IMG/VR virus record: IMGVR_UViG_3300037573_000018 | Coordinates: 1 to 23,557 of that record | Direction: 5' to 3' (one strand) | DNA: 23,557 nt | DNA from: a virus | Shown: piece by piece, positions 1 to 22,124 of the stretch | Layout of the letters: every line of letters begins with the position of its first letter | How positions within the stretch are numbered: the first letter of the stretch is position 1 | Translations under genes and position numbers: made by a program | Notes under the pieces: generated by a model | What the model was told of the DNA's origin: nothing | Databases searched by the model: none | Seen by the model: only the letters and a program-made list of their open reading frames with translations

Positions 1-657
1 ACGATTGCCGCAGCGACGTACACGATCACCGTCGGGGCAGGAGGCACTACCCCCTCATCAGGTTGGAACCAGCGAGGTGGTACCGGCGGTCAGGGCGGGG
101 CTGTATTTCCTTCAGCAATCTACTCCACGGGCGGCGGTGGCGGTGGTGCCGCCAGCGTGAGTGGCTATCCCGGCGGGTCTGGTGGTGGTGCCGAAGCAGG
201 TGGTGCCCAACCCGGTACTGGTACATCAGGGCAGGGTTACGCAGGCGCGAACGGCGTCATGTACCTTGTGTACTTTGGTCAAAACTATCAAACGTCTGGT
301 GGCGGTGGTGGTGCGTCAGCGGTTGGCAGCGGCGGTACCGCTACTGCCAGTGGTGGTGGTTACGCAAACGGTGGTGCTGGATCGTCCAACACATACTTCG
401 ATGGCACCACCGACTATTACAGCGGAGGCGGAGGCGGCAGCGGCGTTGTGGTGACGCCACCACAAGTCAACATGTACGGTGGTGCTGGTGGTACTGGCGG
501 TGGCGGCAATGGCAGCGGCCGTGTCTCATCCTCCGATGTCGCTGGTAGCGCTGGAACGGCAAATACTGGCGGCGGTGGCGGCGGTGGTACCGCCTATGTG
601 AGCGGCTATTACGGTGGGAGCGGTGTCGTCGTGATCCGTTACCCCTACGAGTGGTGA
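1..657 (+). CDS. Glycine-rich tail fibre/adhesin, C-terminal part (5' end outside window)
   Basis: The frame is open from base 1 to TGA at 655-657 (218 residues visible), so the gene starts upstream of the window. The product is dominated by runs of 4-7 glycines separated by Ser/Thr/Ala/Tyr/Asn, and ends GGSGVVVIRYPYEW, the usual closing strand of phage glycine-rich domains. Such domains can form packed polyglycine-II helices, as in the receptor-binding tip of the Salmonella phage S16 long tail fibre; assigning that fold here is inference. A second gene of the same type lies at 2202-3140 and ends GGSGFVVIRYAV. Both are followed directly by a copy of the same small gene (665-1030 and 3140-3517). 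The likely role is host recognition at the virion surface. The family type is clear; the target is unknown. Confidence 0.75.
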   Translation, partial: TIAAATYTITVGAGGTTPSSGWNQRGGTGGQGGAVFPSAIYSTGGGGGGAASVSGYPGGSGGGAEAGGAQPGTGTSGQGYAGANGVMYLVYFGQNYQTSGGGGGASAVGSGGTATASGGGYANGGAGSSNTYFDGTTDYYSGGGGGSGVVVTPPQVNMYGGAGGTGGGGNGSGRVSSSDVAGSAGTANTGGGGGGGTAYVSGYYGGSGVVVIRYPYEW

Positions 658-664
658 GGTTCTG

Positions 665-1030
665 ATGGCCCATTTCGCAGAAATAGACGCCGACAACATT
701 GTCCTACGGGTGCTGGTCGTAGGCGACGACGAGGAACACCGTGGGCAAGAGTTTCTGGCCGATGACTGTGGCCTTGGCGGCACATGGATTCAAACCTCTT
801 ACAACACCACCGCCAACAGTCATTCGTTGGGTGGCACGCCGCTGCACATGAACTACGCAGGCATCGGGCACGTCTGGGACGGCACCGGTTTCGCCGCAGC
901 GCAGCCGTACCCGTCGTGGACTCTGGATGGCGACTACCGGTGGCAGCCACCGACACCCATGCCAGACGATGACAAGGTTTACGTTTGGGATGAAGCCACA
1001 ACTTCATGGAAAGAACTGGAGACTGAATAA
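665..1030 (+). CDS. Small conserved phage protein paired with glycine-rich adhesin (copy 1)
   Basis: This 121-residue protein begins MAHFAEIDADNIVLRVLVV and carries GGTWIQTSYN, a YAGIGHVWD segment, QPYPSWTLD and a C-terminal WDEATTSW. I recall this pattern from many marine tailed phages as a hypothetical protein near tail fibre genes. It starts 7 bases after the adhesin stop and its own stop overlaps the next start (TAATG). A clear paralogue lies at 3140-3517, also right after a glycine-rich adhesin. The repeated pairing suggests a fibre accessory, for example a cap or assembly chaperone like the T4 gp37/gp38 pairing. No catalytic motif, signal peptide or membrane segment is visible. The gene is certain; the role is inferred. 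Confidence 0.8.
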   Translation: MAHFAEIDADNIVLRVLVVGDDEEHRGQEFLADDCGLGGTWIQTSYNTTANSHSLGGTPLHMNYAGIGHVWDGTGFAAAQPYPSWTLDGDYRWQPPTPMPDDDKVYVWDEATTSWKELETE

Positions 1031-1836
1031 TGGCCGTACAGATTCAACTAAGACGAGGTACTGCCGCAGCGTGGACCTCGGCCAACCCGACTCTCGCCAG
1101 TGGCGAGTTGGTTATAGAAACCGATACCGACAAGTACAAGATAGGTGATGGGTCAACTGCATGGACCTCCCTTGGCTACTCGTCACTGCCTAGTACTGCT
1201 ATTAGCAATACAGTGGTTGATGCCAAGGGCGACATCATTGCTGCCACAGCCGCCGACACTGTAGCCAAACTTACGGTGGGGTCCAACGGACAGGTGCTGA
1301 CTGCCGCCTCAGGCCAGAGCACGGGTCTCCAGTGGGCGACGATGACCCACACTGCCATTACCGTTGCTGATACTACCGATACAACTTGTTTCGTGGGCCT
1401 GTTTGAGTCGGCTACCGGTGATCTGGCCCCGAAGACTGATGCCGGGGTCACATACAACGCTGGTACAGGGATGCTGACGGCAACAGGGTTTACTGGTCCT
1501 CTGACCGGGAACGCTTCCGGGTCGTCCGGTAGCACCACGGGTAACGCTGCTACAGCGACTGCTCTAGCCACAGGACGCACTATTGGTGGCGTGTCGTTCG
1601 ATGGTACCGCCAACATTGCAGTCACACTGGCTGCCACGGCAACGGCCCTAGCGACAGGCCGCACCATTGGTGGTACATCCTTCGATGGAACGGCCAACAT
1701 CGCAGTCGGTTTGGCTGGGACGGCGACAGCCCTAGCCACCGCCCGCACTATTGCTGGTGTCTCATTTGACGGGACTGCAAATATAGACCTAGGCACAGAT
1801 GCTAATATAGTATTAGCGTCTCAATCGTTTAGTTAG
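1030..1836 (+). CDS. Tail fibre protein with Mtd-N-like N-terminus and C-terminal repeats
   Basis: A 268-residue protein. Residues 1-50 (VQIQLRRGTAAAW, ASGELVIETDTDKYKIGDG, TAWTSLGY) match the short N-terminal domain of phage major tropism determinants and many fibre proteins, which anchors the fibre to the virion. The middle is Ala/Thr-rich beta-type sequence. Residues about 174-254 hold three tandem repeats of the form TATALATGRTIGGVSFDGTA, typical of fibre shafts. It begins inside the stop of the preceding gene (TAATG at 1028-1032) and sits between the two adhesin cassettes, consistent with a shared fibre complex. No enzymatic or S74 chaperone domain is present. The fibre role is well supported; the receptor is unknown. 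Confidence 0.82.
   Translation: MAVQIQLRRGTAAAWTSANPTLASGELVIETDTDKYKIGDGSTAWTSLGYSSLPSTAISNTVVDAKGDIIAATAADTVAKLTVGSNGQVLTAASGQSTGLQWATMTHTAITVADTTDTTCFVGLFESATGDLAPKTDAGVTYNAGTGMLTATGFTGPLTGNASGSSGSTTGNAATATALATGRTIGGVSFDGTANIAVTLAATATALATGRTIGGTSFDGTANIAVGLAGTATALATARTIAGVSFDGTANIDLGTDANIVLASQSFS
1549..1789 (+). repeat. Three tandem ~84-base in-frame repeats in the fibre gene
   Basis: Three consecutive units begin near 1549, 1631 and 1718. Each encodes a version of ATALATGRTIGGxSFDGTANI. The third is diverged (ATARTIAGVSF, then DLG). Synonymous differences between units indicate an old duplication kept at the protein level rather than a recent slippage event. Such units usually form a repetitive beta-structured fibre shaft. 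Confidence 0.8.
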
Positions 1837-1845
1837 GGGTTAGTA

Positions 1846-2199
1846 ATGGCTACATTTAGCAAGGTTCTGCTCTCGGGCGGGACGACAGGCATGAACGTCA
1901 AGGTGGCTGCTACTTCATCGGCAGGCACCACTATTCATACTGCCGTATCCGGTACGTCCAACATGGATGAGGTGTGGCTCTACGCTTGTAACACCAGCGG
2001 GTCTGACGTGAAGTTGACTATCGAATACGGGGCCACTAGTGATGACCAGAGGCTGACCGAGATCACTATTACCACGGAGGCTGGGTGGACGCTGATTTGT
2101 CCGGGCCTGCTCCTCCAGAACAGTCTGGTTATCAAGGCGTTCGCCGCAACGGCCAATGTCATCAACGTCAATGGTTACGCAAACAGGATCACGGCCTAA
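1846..2199 (+). CDS. Small beta-rich conserved phage protein, probably fibre-associated
   Basis: A 117-residue protein beginning MATFSKVLLSGGTTGMNVKV. It shows alternating hydrophobic beta-strand patterns, TIHTAVSGTSNMDEVWLYACN, LTIEYGATSDDQ and a C-terminal FAATANVINVNGYANRI. I recall near-identical architecture in small hypothetical proteins encoded beside tail fibres in marine phages. An AGGGG ribosome-binding element (TTAGGGGTTAGTA) precedes the ATG. The gene ends two bases before the next start. There is no signal peptide, membrane segment or catalytic motif. A beta-sandwich virion decoration or fibre head is plausible but unproven. Confidence 0.75.
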   Translation: MATFSKVLLSGGTTGMNVKVAATSSAGTTIHTAVSGTSNMDEVWLYACNTSGSDVKLTIEYGATSDDQRLTEITITTEAGWTLICPGLLLQNSLVIKAFAATANVINVNGYANRITA

Positions 2200-2201
2200 C
2201 C

Positions 2202-3140
2202 ATGCCGTGGATCGGAAGGTACTTCGCAAGTTCCAAGGTGTCTGACTGGCGTTCGGGTTCGCTCGGCGGTGGAGGCACTGTTGCGTTTGCTGCTACTGGA
2301 GGTACAGAAAGATCCTATTCGGGCTATAAGTCTCATACCTTCACCGGTTCGGGGACGTTTACCGTTACTGGTGGTTCTATTGAAGTGGACATATTTATAG
2401 TTGGTGGAGGCGGTGGTGGCACCGCACAGACAGACACTAAGGCGACAGGCGGTTCTGGCGCAGGGGGCTTTATTCTGGATACCACTACAGTCTCTTCGGT
2501 AGGTGGTACCGGCGGGGACGGTGCTTACGCCATCGTGGTTGGTGGTGGTGGCTCCGGTTACAGAATCTATTCTTATGGGGGGTATAACACCTCTTACGGC
2601 GGCGACAACGGCAACGATTCGACGTTCAATGGTTGTGAAGCAATCGGTGGCGGTGGCGGTGGCGGTTCGTACGTCGTCATTGCCAACCAAGCCCACGGAG
2701 GCGGGTGTGGCGGCGGGCAAGGCGGTGCGTCCGGCAGTTTCTTGCCGGGGTGTCGCGGCGTCCAAGGTGGCGATGCCAACAACGCCTCCGGTGCTATGCA
2801 CAGCGAAGTAGGGAGCGGTGGAGGTGGGCACGGGAACACGACCGGAACCACCGGGCGCAACGGGCACAACGGTGCCAACAACGATTATTCGACAGGCTCA
2901 AACATTATGTATGGCGGTGGTGGTGGTGGAACCGACAACTACTATTATTCCCCACCGGGAACGGGCGGCTCCGGTGGCGGCTCCGCTGGATCAAGACCGT
3001 ACTACACCACCCAAGTTATTACGAATGCGACGGCAAACACCGGGGGTGGTGGCGGCTCAATGTGTAATAACGGAGCCTACAATGACTACACCTCCCCTAA
3101 TGGCGGTAGTGGGTTCGTCGTTATTAGGTATGCAGTCTGA
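2202..3140 (+). CDS. Glycine-rich tail fibre/adhesin (complete)
   Basis: A 312-residue protein. I chose ATG 2202 (MPWIGRYFASS) because it starts two bases after the upstream stop; the frame stays open back to an ATG at 2085, but that start would overlap the upstream gene by over 110 bases. Residues about 45-70 (YKSHTFTGSGTFTVTGG, DIFIVGGGGGG) are the standard entry to the phage glycine-rich domain. Long poly-Gly blocks follow, with Asn/Tyr/Ser inserts (for example HGGGCGGGQGG), ending GGSGFVVIRYAV. It is the second member of its family in the window and is followed, with a one-base overlap, by the small MAHFAE-type gene. The likely role is receptor binding at a fibre tip. The several cysteines are unusual for an intracellularly assembled adhesin. 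Confidence 0.82.
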   Translation: MPWIGRYFASSKVSDWRSGSLGGGGTVAFAATGGTERSYSGYKSHTFTGSGTFTVTGGSIEVDIFIVGGGGGGTAQTDTKATGGSGAGGFILDTTTVSSVGGTGGDGAYAIVVGGGGSGYRIYSYGGYNTSYGGDNGNDSTFNGCEAIGGGGGGGSYVVIANQAHGGGCGGGQGGASGSFLPGCRGVQGGDANNASGAMHSEVGSGGGGHGNTTGTTGRNGHNGANNDYSTGSNIMYGGGGGGTDNYYYSPPGTGGSGGGSAGSRPYYTTQVITNATANTGGGGGSMCNNGAYNDYTSPNGGSGFVVIRYAV

Positions 3141-3517
3141 TGGCTCATTTCGCTGAACTAGACGAGAACAATATCGTTCTACGGGTTATCGTTGTTAATA
3201 ATGAGGATACGGCTGACGCTGATGGCAACGAGGTTGAATCCATTGGTCAGCAGTTCTGTACCGATCTGCTTGGCGGGACATGGGTCCAAACCTCGTACAA
3301 CCGCAACCAGAGAGTCGGGTATGCGACGAAAGGAGACATCTATGATGCCGACTTGGATGCTTTCTATGTACAGCAGCCATTTCCGTCATGGACTCTTGAC
3401 GCAAGTATCCCAAACTGGGTAGCACCAATTGCATATCCGGTTGCTGATGAAGATGATGACGACCCAACAACATATAACTGGGACGAAGACACGACCTCAT
3501 GGGTTGAGGTAGAATAG
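3140..3517 (+). CDS. Small conserved phage protein paired with glycine-rich adhesin (copy 2)
   Basis: A 125-residue paralogue of the protein at 665-1030. It shares MAHFAELDENNIVLRVIVV, LLGGTWVQTSYN, QPFPSWTLD and a final YNWDEDTTSWVEVE. This copy has an extra acidic insertion (residues about 23-40: TADADGNEVESIGQQF), which I associate with the commoner marine-phage form. Its ATG overlaps the adhesin stop by one base (TGATGG), so translation is probably coupled. The DNA of the two copies is recognisably similar over the first 50 bases, which supports duplication of a two-gene cassette. The function is unknown; a fibre accessory or chaperone role is inferred from the pairing. Confidence 0.82.
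   Translation: MAHFAELDENNIVLRVIVVNNEDTADADGNEVESIGQQFCTDLLGGTWVQTSYNRNQRVGYATKGDIYDADLDAFYVQQPFPSWTLDASIPNWVAPIAYPVADEDDDDPTTYNWDEDTTSWVEVE

Positions 3518-3973: not shown

Positions 3974-3977
<4 letters not shown>
3549..3977 (+). CDS. Membrane-anchored hypothetical protein
   Basis: A 142-residue protein with a GGGGGTG ribosome-binding element just upstream of ATG 3549. Residues 1-48 are a charged helix broken by a Pro-rich patch ([11 protein letters not shown]). Residues 49-66 are hydrophobic ([17 protein letters not shown]), about 73-93 form a helix with coiled-coil character, and 114-134 form a strong transmembrane segment ([19 protein letters not shown]) followed by the basic tail YQNRRKARK. 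The basic C-terminus predicts a cytoplasmic tail and an N-out topology if the first hydrophobic patch does not cross. The stop overlaps the GTG start of the lipoprotein gene (GTGA), so the two are probably translated together. I do not recognise the family; a holin-like or lipoprotein-partner role are both possible. Confidence 0.7.
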
Positions 3978-7785
<3,808 letters not shown>

Positions 7786-7786
<1 letters not shown>

Positions 7787-8055
7787 TGAAGGTCTGGATC
7801 GACCAAGACTTGTGTACTGGGGATGGTCTTTGTGCTGAGATTTGTCCTGACATCTTTGAGATGCACGATGATGGGTTGGCCTATGTCAAGGAAGTTGAGT
7901 GGCCTACCATGTACGGACCTGATGGAGCAGCCAAGGGTGAACCCGTCTACAAGATGGCTACGGGTTTGGCAGATGTCCCTGAGGGGCTTTTAGAGGATGT
8001 CATTGAGTCTGCTGACGAATGCCCCGGTGAGTGCATCTACATTGAGGTAGAATAG
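7786..8055 (+). CDS. Single-cluster ferredoxin with Asp cluster ligand
   Basis: An 89-residue ferredoxin, a small cytoplasmic electron carrier. The N-terminus has Cys10-x2-Asp13-x2-Cys16-x3-Cys20-Pro and the C-terminus Cys79-Pro. This strongly resembles Pyrococcus furiosus ferredoxin (VDQDxCxGDxxCxxxCPDxFEM), where Asp14 replaces a Cys as fourth ligand of a [4Fe-4S] cluster that easily converts to [3Fe-4S]. Cys20 matches the Pyrococcus disulfide Cys21, but no partner is seen at the Cys48 position; Cys83 is the only other candidate. A roughly 20-residue insertion (about 38-58) separates the two cluster halves. The start overlaps the lipoprotein stop by one base (TGATG), so translation is likely coupled. 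Phage ferredoxins are known as auxiliary metabolic genes; its redox partner is unknown. Confidence 0.93.
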
Positions 8056-13951: not shown

Positions 13952-14248
13952 ATGGACGCACAGCCCGTAACTCTGGTGGAAGCCTTGGAAACCCCTCTTC
14001 GGAGTCCCCGCCCCCGTGACTGCCTGTTTGCCCGTGTCAGTGACGGGCTGGAGAATGAAGAGCAGGTAGCCCTGACTAAGGCGTTGGATAAGATCCGGTC
14101 TGACCTCAACAACGGACAGCGTAAGGTCTATTCCACAGCATGGCTGGCGACGGTGCTCACCAGTCAGGGATACAGCATCTCGGCAGCAACGATTCAGCGG
14201 CATCTGCGGGAGTCCTGCGGTTGCTACGCCTCTGGTGAGGTCAAGTGA
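13952..14248 (+). CDS. Small helix-turn-helix-like DNA-binding protein
   Basis: 98 residues from ATG 13952 (MDAQPVTLVEALETPL); an in-frame TTG at 13949 sits 8 bases from AAGGAG (13935-13940) and is possible. The C-terminal half, VYSTAWLATVLTSQGYSISAATIQRHLRESCGC, reads as helix-turn-helix (WLATVL, turn GYSIS, recognition helix AATIQRHLRE) followed by a Cys-x-Cys end. Small phage HTH proteins of this kind serve as regulators or terminase small subunits; which one is undecided. The stop overlaps the GTG of the phosphoesterase gene (GTGA). The 60-base gap upstream contains an imperfect inverted repeat (CTCACATG...CATGAG). Confidence 0.65.
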   Translation: MDAQPVTLVEALETPLRSPRPRDCLFARVSDGLENEEQVALTKALDKIRSDLNNGQRKVYSTAWLATVLTSQGYSISAATIQRHLRESCGCYASGEVK

Positions 14249-15396
14249 GTACGGCCAGCGAACTCTCCAAACGCTTGGGCAAGGCACCACCTAGGCAGGC
14301 CCTAGGCAAACTGGCTGACCTGCTGGACCGCCACAACATAGACCTAGAGGAAATCGGTGACATCAAGAAGGTGTCCCTTTATCAGTCTTTGACTAAGGAC
14401 GCAGATGGTGAAGCACAGATTCACGACTTGGTTGGTATCCAGATTTCTCCGTCGTGGGAAACAGGACCGGAGTGGCCCGTCATACAACCCGGACCCACAA
14501 TCACACTTCCCAAGGGTGTTACCCCCAAGAAGAAGAAGACGGAGTTAAAGACCTGTGTAGTTCTCCCCGACATGCAGATCGGGTACTTCCGAAACAAGGC
14601 GGGGGAACTGGAGGGGACTCACGACGAGGAGGCCATAGCGTTGGCTGTGGCGATGGTCTCCGACATCAAGCCCGAGTTGCTGGTGCTGGTTGGTGACAAT
14701 CTGGATCTTCCAGAGTTGGGTAAGTACCGTCTGTCTCCAGCCTTCCAGCAGACCACCCAAGCATCGGTGGACCGGGCGACCGAGATATGTGCAGCCTTGC
14801 GTGCTGCCGCCCCCGGAGCAGAGATCAAATGGTTGGCGGGCAACCACGAGGAGAGGCTGACCAACTTCATGTTGGACAACGCTGCCGCAGCCTTCGGTAT
14901 CCGTGTCGGCGCTCGCCCCGAAAGTTGGCCGGTGCTAAGTGTTCCCAGTCTGTGCAGGCTGGATGACTTCGACATTGAGTACCTTGCTGGCTACCCCGCT
15001 TCATGTGTGTGGATCAATGAGCACATCAAGGTCATCCACGGCGACATAGTTAGGTCTAATGGCAGTACCGCCCATGCCTACCTGAACCGTGAGAAGGTAT
15101 CGGTACTCTACGGACATATCCATCGTCGTGAGTGGGCAGAGATGACTCGGGAAGACTATGACGGTCCTAGGACTGTCGTCGCAGCGTCACCCGGTTGCTT
15201 GGCCCGCATTGACGGAGCGGTGCCGTCCACCAAGGGGGGTACCGACCTAGACGGTAGGCCACTGAGGAGACATGAGAACTGGCAACAGGGCCTCTGCGTG
15301 GTTCAGTACGAGGAGGGGGACGGCAAGTTCAACCTTGAGATGGTGACGATTCGTGATGGATGGGCCATGTACCGAGGTAAGGAGTACTGCCGATAG
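14245..15396 (+). CDS. Calcineurin-like metallophosphoesterase
   Basis: A 383-residue protein with the family metal-binding motifs in order: Asp109-Met-Gln111 (normally DxH), Gly150-Asp151-Asn152 (GDN), GNHEE (199-203), HGD (265-267) and GHIH (290-293). This active site hydrolyses phosphomonoesters or phosphodiesters with two metal ions. The Gln in place of the first His is seen in some phage members but may change the metal or the substrate. Residues 1-100 are a separate helical N-terminal part with a Lys-rich linker (PKKKKTELK). It starts at GTG 14245 overlapping the previous stop. The substrate could be DNA ends, nucleotides or a signalling molecule; the sequence does not decide. Confidence 0.9.
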   Translation: MSTASELSKRLGKAPPRQALGKLADLLDRHNIDLEEIGDIKKVSLYQSLTKDADGEAQIHDLVGIQISPSWETGPEWPVIQPGPTITLPKGVTPKKKKTELKTCVVLPDMQIGYFRNKAGELEGTHDEEAIALAVAMVSDIKPELLVLVGDNLDLPELGKYRLSPAFQQTTQASVDRATEICAALRAAAPGAEIKWLAGNHEERLTNFMLDNAAAAFGIRVGARPESWPVLSVPSLCRLDDFDIEYLAGYPASCVWINEHIKVIHGDIVRSNGSTAHAYLNREKVSVLYGHIHRREWAEMTREDYDGPRTVVAASPGCLARIDGAVPSTKGGTDLDGRPLRRHENWQQGLCVVQYEEGDGKFNLEMVTIRDGWAMYRGKEYCR

Positions 15397-20729: not shown

Positions 20730-22124
20730 ATGGCCTTTACGATACCTAACCGGCCAGATACCGTTGATGCCGATCAGGCAGAACCAGACAAGGGTGACTT
20801 CCAGTCCCTTGGCTACCAGAAGTCGGGAGTGTTGAGTGGTGGTGCTGTAACAAACAGTGCTACTAATACCGTAACCGCTGCTGCGGTGAGCGGTTACCTC
20901 AACGGTGAGTACTTTAGCATCACAGCAGACACCGTTCTGTCTATGTCTGCCCCGGCTACGGGGAACGCCAAGTTCGTCCTGATTAGTGTACAGAAATCAG
21001 GGGGAGTTTTCAGTGTGTATGCCCTACAGGGCACCACTGCCAACAACGGGGAGAGCGCTTCAAACGCTAGGTTCCCCGACTTCGACAGCACCACCGACCT
21101 GCTTCTGGCTACTGTCTACTACGCTTCCGGTGACACAGGCATAAACGCTGCTGCCATCGTTGACAAGCGTGTGTCCATCCTCCCGCAGGCCAACCCCACG
21201 GTAGTCACGTCCACGCCCGGTTCTGCTGTGGGTACTATCGGTGAAATACGCATCGACTCTAACATGACCGAGGCTACGGGTCAGACCAGAATCTATGTTA
21301 AGACTGATGCCACAACGTGGACCAACCTTGGGGCCGCTAGCGGTGGTGGCACCACTACTGAAGAAGTACAGGACATCGTCGGTGCCATGTTCACCACCGA
21401 CGCCACCCACTCTGGTATATCAGCCATCTATGATGACGCTGGTGGTGGAGTTGACCTGACGGGTTCTACAGAATGGAATCTCACGGTTGCTGGGAGTACC
21501 GAGAACATCGGTGGGTCCGATACGGTAGCGATAAACGTATCCAGTGACGCTGAGATCAGCCTGTCCCACGCTAACGGCACGATCACGATTAACGATGAGT
21601 GGCCCCGCACCCGGACCCTCACCAACTCAGCAGGGGCCACCAAGGACGGACACTACCTCGTATCAGACCCGTGGGGTTACGAGTGGGCCTTCACCAAAGA
21701 TCAGTTCATTTACACCTCGTTCGTCACTGCGTCCATCTGGCCCAATACAACCAACACTTGGACTTGTGGGGGTTGGAATAACAGATGGTCAGGCGTGTAC
21801 ACCAACGTGTCTTACTATCAGTCTACTAGTGGCTACTCAGATAGAGACTTAAAGCAAGACTTTGAGGCAGTTCCCGGCCTCAACTTTGTCAATGGGTTGC
21901 TGCCTCAGTCTTACACCTTTAGGAATGACCCAGCAAGTCGCCGCTGGGGAATCGTGGCACAGGATGTTGAGGCACTCTGCGCCGAGCAGAGTGTTGCAGA
22001 CAACAGTTTGGTTACGATAGATGAGGGAGGCTTCAGGAACCTAAACTACATAGACTTGCTTGCTCCGGTAGTCAACGCCATTCAGGAACTGGCTGCACGG
22101 GTGGAGGCCCTTGAGAATGGCTGA
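20730..22124 (+). CDS. Fibre protein with S74 intramolecular chaperone domain
   Basis: A 464-residue protein. The N-terminal ~160 residues resemble a virion-attachment region (MAFTIPNRPDTVDADQAEPD). The middle is Thr/Ser/Gly-rich beta-type sequence. The C-terminal ~100 residues are a peptidase S74 (endosialidase-type) chaperone: GYS370-DRDLK375-QDFEAVPGL, LLPQSYTFRND, RRWGIVAQDVEAL, LNYIDLLAPVVNAIQELAARVEALE. Ser370 and Lys375 have the spacing of the catalytic Ser/Lys pair that cuts the chaperone off after trimer folding. The product is therefore likely a trimeric fibre released by self-cleavage. Unusually the gene lies inside the head cluster, between the capsid gene and connector genes. It starts 8 bases after the upstream stop. 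Confidence 0.9.
   Translation: MAFTIPNRPDTVDADQAEPDKGDFQSLGYQKSGVLSGGAVTNSATNTVTAAAVSGYLNGEYFSITADTVLSMSAPATGNAKFVLISVQKSGGVFSVYALQGTTANNGESASNARFPDFDSTTDLLLATVYYASGDTGINAAAIVDKRVSILPQANPTVVTSTPGSAVGTIGEIRIDSNMTEATGQTRIYVKTDATTWTNLGAASGGGTTTEEVQDIVGAMFTTDATHSGISAIYDDAGGGVDLTGSTEWNLTVAGSTENIGGSDTVAINVSSDAEISLSHANGTITINDEWPRTRTLTNSAGATKDGHYLVSDPWGYEWAFTKDQFIYTSFVTASIWPNTTNTWTCGGWNNRWSGVYTNVSYYQSTSGYSDRDLKQDFEAVPGLNFVNGLLPQSYTFRNDPASRRWGIVAQDVEALCAEQSVADNSLVTIDEGGFRNLNYIDLLAPVVNAIQELAARVEALENG

Follow-up and report, generated by a model that had tools for sequence, protein, structure and literature searches.

A small protein family encoded behind glycine-rich phage adhesins as a candidate maturation factor for receptor-binding tips

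Introduction

For phage tail fibers and their chaperones, the usual arrangement is the fiber gene first and the chaperone gene second (PMC7289586). The closest described counterpart of the system considered here is the Pam3 pair gp24–gp25, a 3:3 complex of a glycine-rich adhesin and a small chaperone: gp24 is soluble on co-expression with gp25 and mostly insoluble alone, gp25 was not detected in virions, and the beta domain of gp25 binds beside the glycine lattice (PMC9608196). The same study describes Tfa proteins as modular (PMC9608196). Here we analyzed the complete IMG/VR virus record IMGVR_UViG_3300037573_000018, a linear fragment of 23,557 bases referred to below as the window, in which the gene for a glycine-rich adhesin is twice accompanied by a downstream gene for a small protein that we designate MAHFAE. 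The MAHFAE gene was found to lie nearly always one to four genes behind such an adhesin, and its product is probably a maturation factor for the adhesin.

Two further systems invite comparison. In the marine Alteromonas phage V22, a DUF4376-type chaperone, gp27, is encoded directly after the receptor-binding protein and is required for its function (PMC7289586); unlike MAHFAE, gp27 comprises 195 amino acids and its client gp26 is not glycine-rich, and no sequence match links it to MAHFAE. The T-even protein gp38 (Salmonella phage S16 gp38, PDB 6F45) is likewise a glycine-rich receptor-binding tip according to the comparison made in the Pam3 paper (PMC9608196), but it was not among the Foldseek matches listed for our adhesin model, and no MAHFAE partner is reported there. 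A fiber with its chaperone is already a known kind of system; MAHFAE is a new family by sequence.

Results

Both adhesin–MAHFAE pairs lie on the plus strand of the window. In pair 1, the adhesin gene (1..657) is incomplete, its 5' end having been removed by the contig edge; the 218 amino acids that remain end in GGSGVVVIRYPYEW, and the MAHFAE gene (665..1030, 121 amino acids) follows after a gap of 7 bases. In pair 2, the adhesin gene (2202..3140) starts with the ATG at 2202 and encodes 312 amino acids ending in GGSGFVVIRYAV, and its stop codon TGA has one base in common with the ATG of the MAHFAE gene (3140..3517, 125 amino acids; TGATG). Both adhesin open reading frames (ORFs) matched phrog_2295 and also PF21722 (Gly_rich_2), the latter above the curated cut-off in both cases, with E values of 2.6e-6 for pair 1 and 5e-15 for pair 2. 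The partners matched phrog_7759 ("unknown function"; E values of 1.8e-30 for pair 1 and 7.4e-39 for pair 2), with residues 1–119 and 1–124 aligned to nearly all 125 profile positions. Their NH2-termini are MAHFAEIDADNIVLRV (pair 1) and MAHFAELDENNIVLRV (pair 2), and their identity of 52–54% over the full length (E = 2.1e-19) is far above chance. The ORFs, PF21722, and phrog_7759 thus confirmed the pairing that a preliminary description of this DNA had proposed at both sites.

That description had also asked whether the MAHFAE gene always follows a glycine-rich adhesin. Loci were gathered from IMG/VR with each MAHFAE copy, from IMG/VR with the adhesin COOH-terminus pattern alone, and from isolated phages, and a MAHFAE family profile was run on all six-frame ORFs. 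This procedure yielded 212 non-redundant members (85% identity), 189 of which had usable gene context; ORFs were called with a simple greedy scheme, and the gene ranks given here may be off by one. A glycine-rich gene occupied position −1 in 130 of 183 cases (71%), position −2 in 39%, −3 in 35%, and −4 in 11%, with values of 0–8% at positions −5 to −8 and at every downstream position. The signal at −2 and −3 reflects runs of adhesins as well as spacers. Counted upstream from MAHFAE, the first glycine-rich gene had rank 1 in 130 of the 189 members, rank 2 in 20, rank 3 in 17, and rank 4 in 4, for a total of 171; a further 16 members ran off the contig edge, so that ranks 1 to 4 accounted for 171 of 173 non-edge cases. 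The two members scored as having no such gene (L105 and L160) proved on reading to have a glycine-rich neighbor that had been overlooked by the filter. At one other locus (L384), no glycine-rich gene was present within the 1 kb of upstream sequence available. An adhesin was thus nearly always upstream, but a strict rule of "always the next gene" was rejected: spacers are common, with the adhesin then located one to three genes further upstream, and there are two real exceptions, which are considered in the Discussion.

A reverse scan was keyed solely on the adhesin end GGSGIVIIRY and, being independent of MAHFAE, was free of the bias of the first survey. Among 84 sites with downstream room, a MAHFAE domain was found within 3 kb downstream in 59 and within 400 bases in 41; some of the other 25 sites begin adhesin runs with MAHFAE further on (L170, L200). 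A scan of cellular genomes with a single protein gave 15 loci, mostly on contigs of metagenome-assembled genomes of mixed phyla, which are likely phage DNA; a glycine-rich gene preceded MAHFAE in 12 of the 12 with enough upstream sequence, and the upstream protein at L374 has a long non-glycine COOH-terminal tail. The same pairing was present in the isolated phages S-SM1 (SSM1_049/050), Bellamy, phiPsal1, CRP-207, and Melnitz-3. Frequent occurrence of the small gene far from any glycine-rich adhesin, which the preliminary description had named as evidence against a relationship, was seen in neither direction of survey.

An AlphaFold2 model of the pair 2 adhesin (2202–3137; predicted template modeling score of 0.78, with tip loops at low confidence) matched the Pam3 fiber gp24 (7ypx_A; Foldseek E = 4.6e-5, probability of 1.0) and the Bxb1 tail tip (9d93; E = 1.1e-5), with the glycine-rich domain of ALK as a weaker match. 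The model and its matches identify a beta-sandwich with a glycine-rich lattice. A tblastn search with the adhesin gave no match, which fits low-complexity masking. Approximately one-third of MAHFAE-adjacent adhesins look circularly permuted (for example, L021 7094–7987, L177 12881–13708, and L081 7045–7986), with the opening segment TTGSPTVTTSGGYRIYTFTGSGSITF, which is NH2-terminal in the copy of the window, placed COOH-terminally, after GGSGIVIIRY. Searches of the available literature for the MAHFAE family and for permuted glycine-rich adhesins found no publication on either. In phiPsal1 (L086, MG835450), a glycine-rich ORF of 298 amino acids ending in GGSGIVIVRYAV extends to the MAHFAE gene (approximately 5100–6001); the deposited annotation has two short ORFs there (phiPsal1_022, _023), and the adhesin was apparently overlooked.

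MAHFAE proteins are 115–125 amino acids long. For structure prediction, rows from annotated phage records were left out of the alignment. The AlphaFold2 model, obtained for the pair 2 partner (predicted local distance difference test score of 93.5), consists of two NH2-terminal strands, a sole helix (33–44), and then short hairpins, with beta strands at the COOH-terminal end; the three COOH-terminal segments are beta-hairpin and tryptophan-rich. Conserved residues are mostly aromatic, Gly, or Pro and include no evident catalytic set. The model had no significant Foldseek match among 350,542 PDB chains. Ranks 2 and 3 among these chains were 7ypx_a, assigned to Pam3 gp25 by its length of 162 residues, and 5yvq_B, which is Mu Tfa. 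Given that a phmmer search of PDB with Mu Tfa returned 5yvq_B alone, few Tfa-like chains are present in PDB. The two ranks, although not proof, are suggestive of a chaperone-type fold for the modeled protein. In BFVD, the 14 significant matches were all unnamed or uncharacterized, and weak matches included proteins labeled DUF4376, "tail fiber assembly", and "tail assembly chaperone".

The likeness to Pam3 gp24–gp25 therefore consists of a glycine-rich adhesin with a small partner, the adhesin fold matching significantly and the partner fold weakly within the same entry (PDB 7YPX). Like the Tfa/Caudo_TAP proteins (Mu gpU, lambda Tfa; PF02413), MAHFAE is encoded by a small gene after a fiber gene, and a short NH2-terminal beta-hairpin resemblance was apparent by eye in addition to the weak fold match to Mu Tfa; it differs from them in its COOH-terminal half and in having glycine-rich adhesins as putative clients. 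MAHFAE as a sequence homolog of Tfa was rejected, with Pfam, hmmsearch on PDB, and hhalign all yielding nothing. Variants of the gene are also modular. At L224, the gene behind the adhesin contains the COOH-terminal MAHFAE half only, fused to a different NH2-terminal domain; at L199, the COOH-terminal module is on another NH2-terminal domain, in a gene immediately before the adhesin; and at L238 and L241, the NH2-terminal half is joined to a different COOH-terminus. No natural adhesin–MAHFAE fusions were found, long open frames being frame artifacts or variants of the COOH-terminal module.

Adhesin and MAHFAE genes alternate two to three times in L061, L249, L088, and the window. Upstream sequence of at least 4.5 kb was available for 91 members; a single adhesin preceded MAHFAE in 61 of these and runs of two to five adhesins did so in 30, with the limitation that the count merges glycine-rich genes separated by fewer than 400 bases and that a few alternating cassettes (L061, L249) were scored as runs. 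The dedicated partnership envisaged in the preliminary description is therefore usual but not universal, many cassettes also having a third gene between adhesin and partner. Such runs sharing a single MAHFAE gene would be expected if MAHFAE were a moron-type gene that is carried along with hypervariable tail-tip loci when these recombine at the conserved adhesin ends, and whose product makes no contact with the adhesin; oxygenases, ferrochelatases, and other genes likewise gather at tail-tip loci. Those other genes vary, however, whereas MAHFAE is kept behind an adhesin at nearly all loci, and the tight spacing, the frequent overlap of stop and start codons, and the repeated alternation in multi-cassette phages also argue against passive linkage, which we consider quite improbable. 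At L191, two different MAHFAE genes (4512 and 4961) stand in tandem after a run of three glycine-rich genes.

The commonest spacer was a family of approximately 200 amino acids, found in 45 of 163 upstream neighbors; where the contig extended far enough, the adhesin was the next gene upstream. The one member tested is a 2-oxoglutarate–Fe(II) (2OG-Fe(II)) oxygenase (TIGR02466, PF13759 2OG-FeII_Oxy_5, phrog_81). Further spacers were small genes of 80–115 amino acids and a gene of 125 amino acids. Given that no gene is found more often between adhesin and MAHFAE than this oxygenase type (21 of 181 non-redundant members), which was identified in the single member checked, MAHFAE might act with it in chemical modification of the adhesin, as a substrate adaptor or modification enzyme. 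Such a role appears very remote, since 137 of the 181 members have no oxygenase in between and the conserved MAHFAE residues suggest no catalytic function. A recurrent gene of 80–115 amino acids adjoins MAHFAE, either before or after it (L032 7674–7967, S-SSM5 SSSM5_045 (L388 7735–8079), L045, and L062); it matches phrog_21526 in L032 and carries the motif W..PRPCP.

Two genes not mentioned in the preliminary description separate the pairs of the window, both on the plus strand: one for a fiber-type protein with a major tropism determinant NH2-terminal domain (1030..1836; PF18454 Mtd_N, E = 3.1e-14), which also matches many tail-fiber PHROGs, and one for a 117-amino acid protein to which no function is assigned (1846..2199; phrog_30535, E = 8e-37). 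The pairs had been described as a duplicated cassette, and this claim did not hold. In a tree of MAHFAE proteins, which was based on few columns and has many unresolved forks, the pair 1 partner (665) grouped with its nearest relative, that of L090 (77% identity; bootstrap/SH-aLRT support of 100/88), whose copy is also behind a glycine-rich gene, and the pair 2 partner (3140) was placed in a different clade. Recent tandem duplication was rejected, with a forced sister grouping of the two partners giving an approximately unbiased (AU) test p of 0.026; either the two cassettes were thus separate acquisitions or their divergence predates the split from L090. Upstream-gene classes changed 17 times on the tree, versus 40 times expected with shuffled labels, a clustering that would be expected from inheritance of the cassettes as units. 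Adhesin end type changed at least 19 times, versus 34 with shuffled labels.

Elsewhere in the window, 3974–7786 encodes a protein of 1270 amino acids with a lipoprotein-like start, a region that may be Cys-His-Asp protease-like, and a long repeat of Pro-Glu/Val-Glu, for which no informative family match was obtained. It is followed by a 4Fe-4S ferredoxin gene (7786–8055; Fer4_15, E = 6.7e-19), which in a phage contig represents an auxiliary metabolic gene. A calcineurin-like phosphoesterase gene (14245–15396; weak match, E = 7e-4) lies between packaging and structural genes, and a fiber-like protein with a COOH-terminal S74 intramolecular chaperone domain (20730–22124) is encoded beyond the major capsid gene, at a distance from the tail-tip cluster. 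Scanning the window for Rfam families and for tRNA genes gave no matches.

Discussion

We consider it probable, on present evidence, that MAHFAE assists the maturation of glycine-rich adhesins as an intermolecular factor, with a Tfa-like role although it is not a member of Tfa by sequence. This role is the most likely because the gene order and the kind of client are those of the Pam3 pair and because the beta domain is possibly related. Each pair would then comprise a receptor-binding tip and its maturation factor. The glycine-rich protein would be an adhesin of the Pam3 gp24 type, with a beta-sandwich bearing a glycine-rich lattice and variable loops directed toward the host. MAHFAE, a putative small chaperone or tip cofactor translated right after the adhesin, would most likely bind the folding adhesin near the beta-sandwich and glycine lattice and may aid its folding and trimerization, as gp25 does for gp24. 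Two cassettes together with the Mtd-type fiber would provide the phage with several alternative tips. The adhesin/chaperone relationship raised in the preliminary description remains the best reading and gains from the adhesin–gp24 match and the weak partner–gp25 match in one PDB entry; binding, chaperone activity, and the receptor role of the adhesin are what we infer from these data.

Several observations weigh against this interpretation. Two loci are real exceptions to the linkage, with MAHFAE located behind a repeat-rich Mtd-like fiber that is not glycine-rich (L032) or behind an 813-amino acid non-glycine-rich fiber and a 190-amino acid gene (L167), and approximately one-third of MAHFAE genes (30/91) sit behind several adhesins. 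The fold matches to gp25 and Mu Tfa are individually non-significant (E = 3.0; probabilities of 0.21 and 0.10; template modeling scores of 0.25–0.35). No Pfam or NCBIfam match was obtained for MAHFAE, PF02413 being absent in 112 family members and in the window, and hhalign of MAHFAE against single Tfa sequences gave no match. Finally, the MAHFAE model is without the COOH-terminal helical trimerization domain of Tfa and of the longer gp25.

The same linkage data would also arise if MAHFAE were a permanent part of the virion, remaining on the adhesin as a small tip or collar protein and contributing to attachment rather than acting as a released chaperone. The three tryptophan-rich segments could form a binding surface, the COOH-terminal module occurs on other NH2-terminal domains beside adhesins (L199, L224), and Mu Tfa remains on its fiber (PMC9608196). 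Pointing weakly the other way, the S-SM1 record annotates SSM1_050 as hypothetical and not as structural, the adhesin SSM1_049 likewise not being called structural. Glycine-rich proteins are expected to give few peptides, and the S-SM1 annotation cannot decide the matter. The virion proteome of this phage was measured and comprised 41 proteins (PMC3037559). On balance, a permanent virion component appears unlikely, if less so than passive linkage.

Returning to a maturation role, we put forward more tentatively that MAHFAE proteins constitute a class of intermolecular chaperones that is new, modular, unrelated by sequence, and specific to glycine-rich adhesins. Such chaperones may spread among phages with widely differing hosts in a mobile cassette, in many cases together with a 2OG-Fe(II) oxygenase, and may act on adhesins with a normal domain as well as on circularly permuted ones. 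The family is widespread: phrog_7759 is present in isolated cyanophages, pelagiphages, roseophages, methylophages, and a Pontimonas phage, and at least about 600 candidate stretches encoding a MAHFAE relative were obtained in each of two scans of public virus contigs. The linkage gives phrog_7759, a family without an assigned function, a candidate role alongside a receptor-binding protein that can be tested directly. It also provides an annotation rule, in that a glycine-rich gene just upstream of MAHFAE is a candidate host-recognition tip, with uses in host-range prediction for uncultured phages and, given that Pam3 gp24 is mostly insoluble without its chaperone (PMC9608196), in the recombinant production of glycine-rich adhesins.

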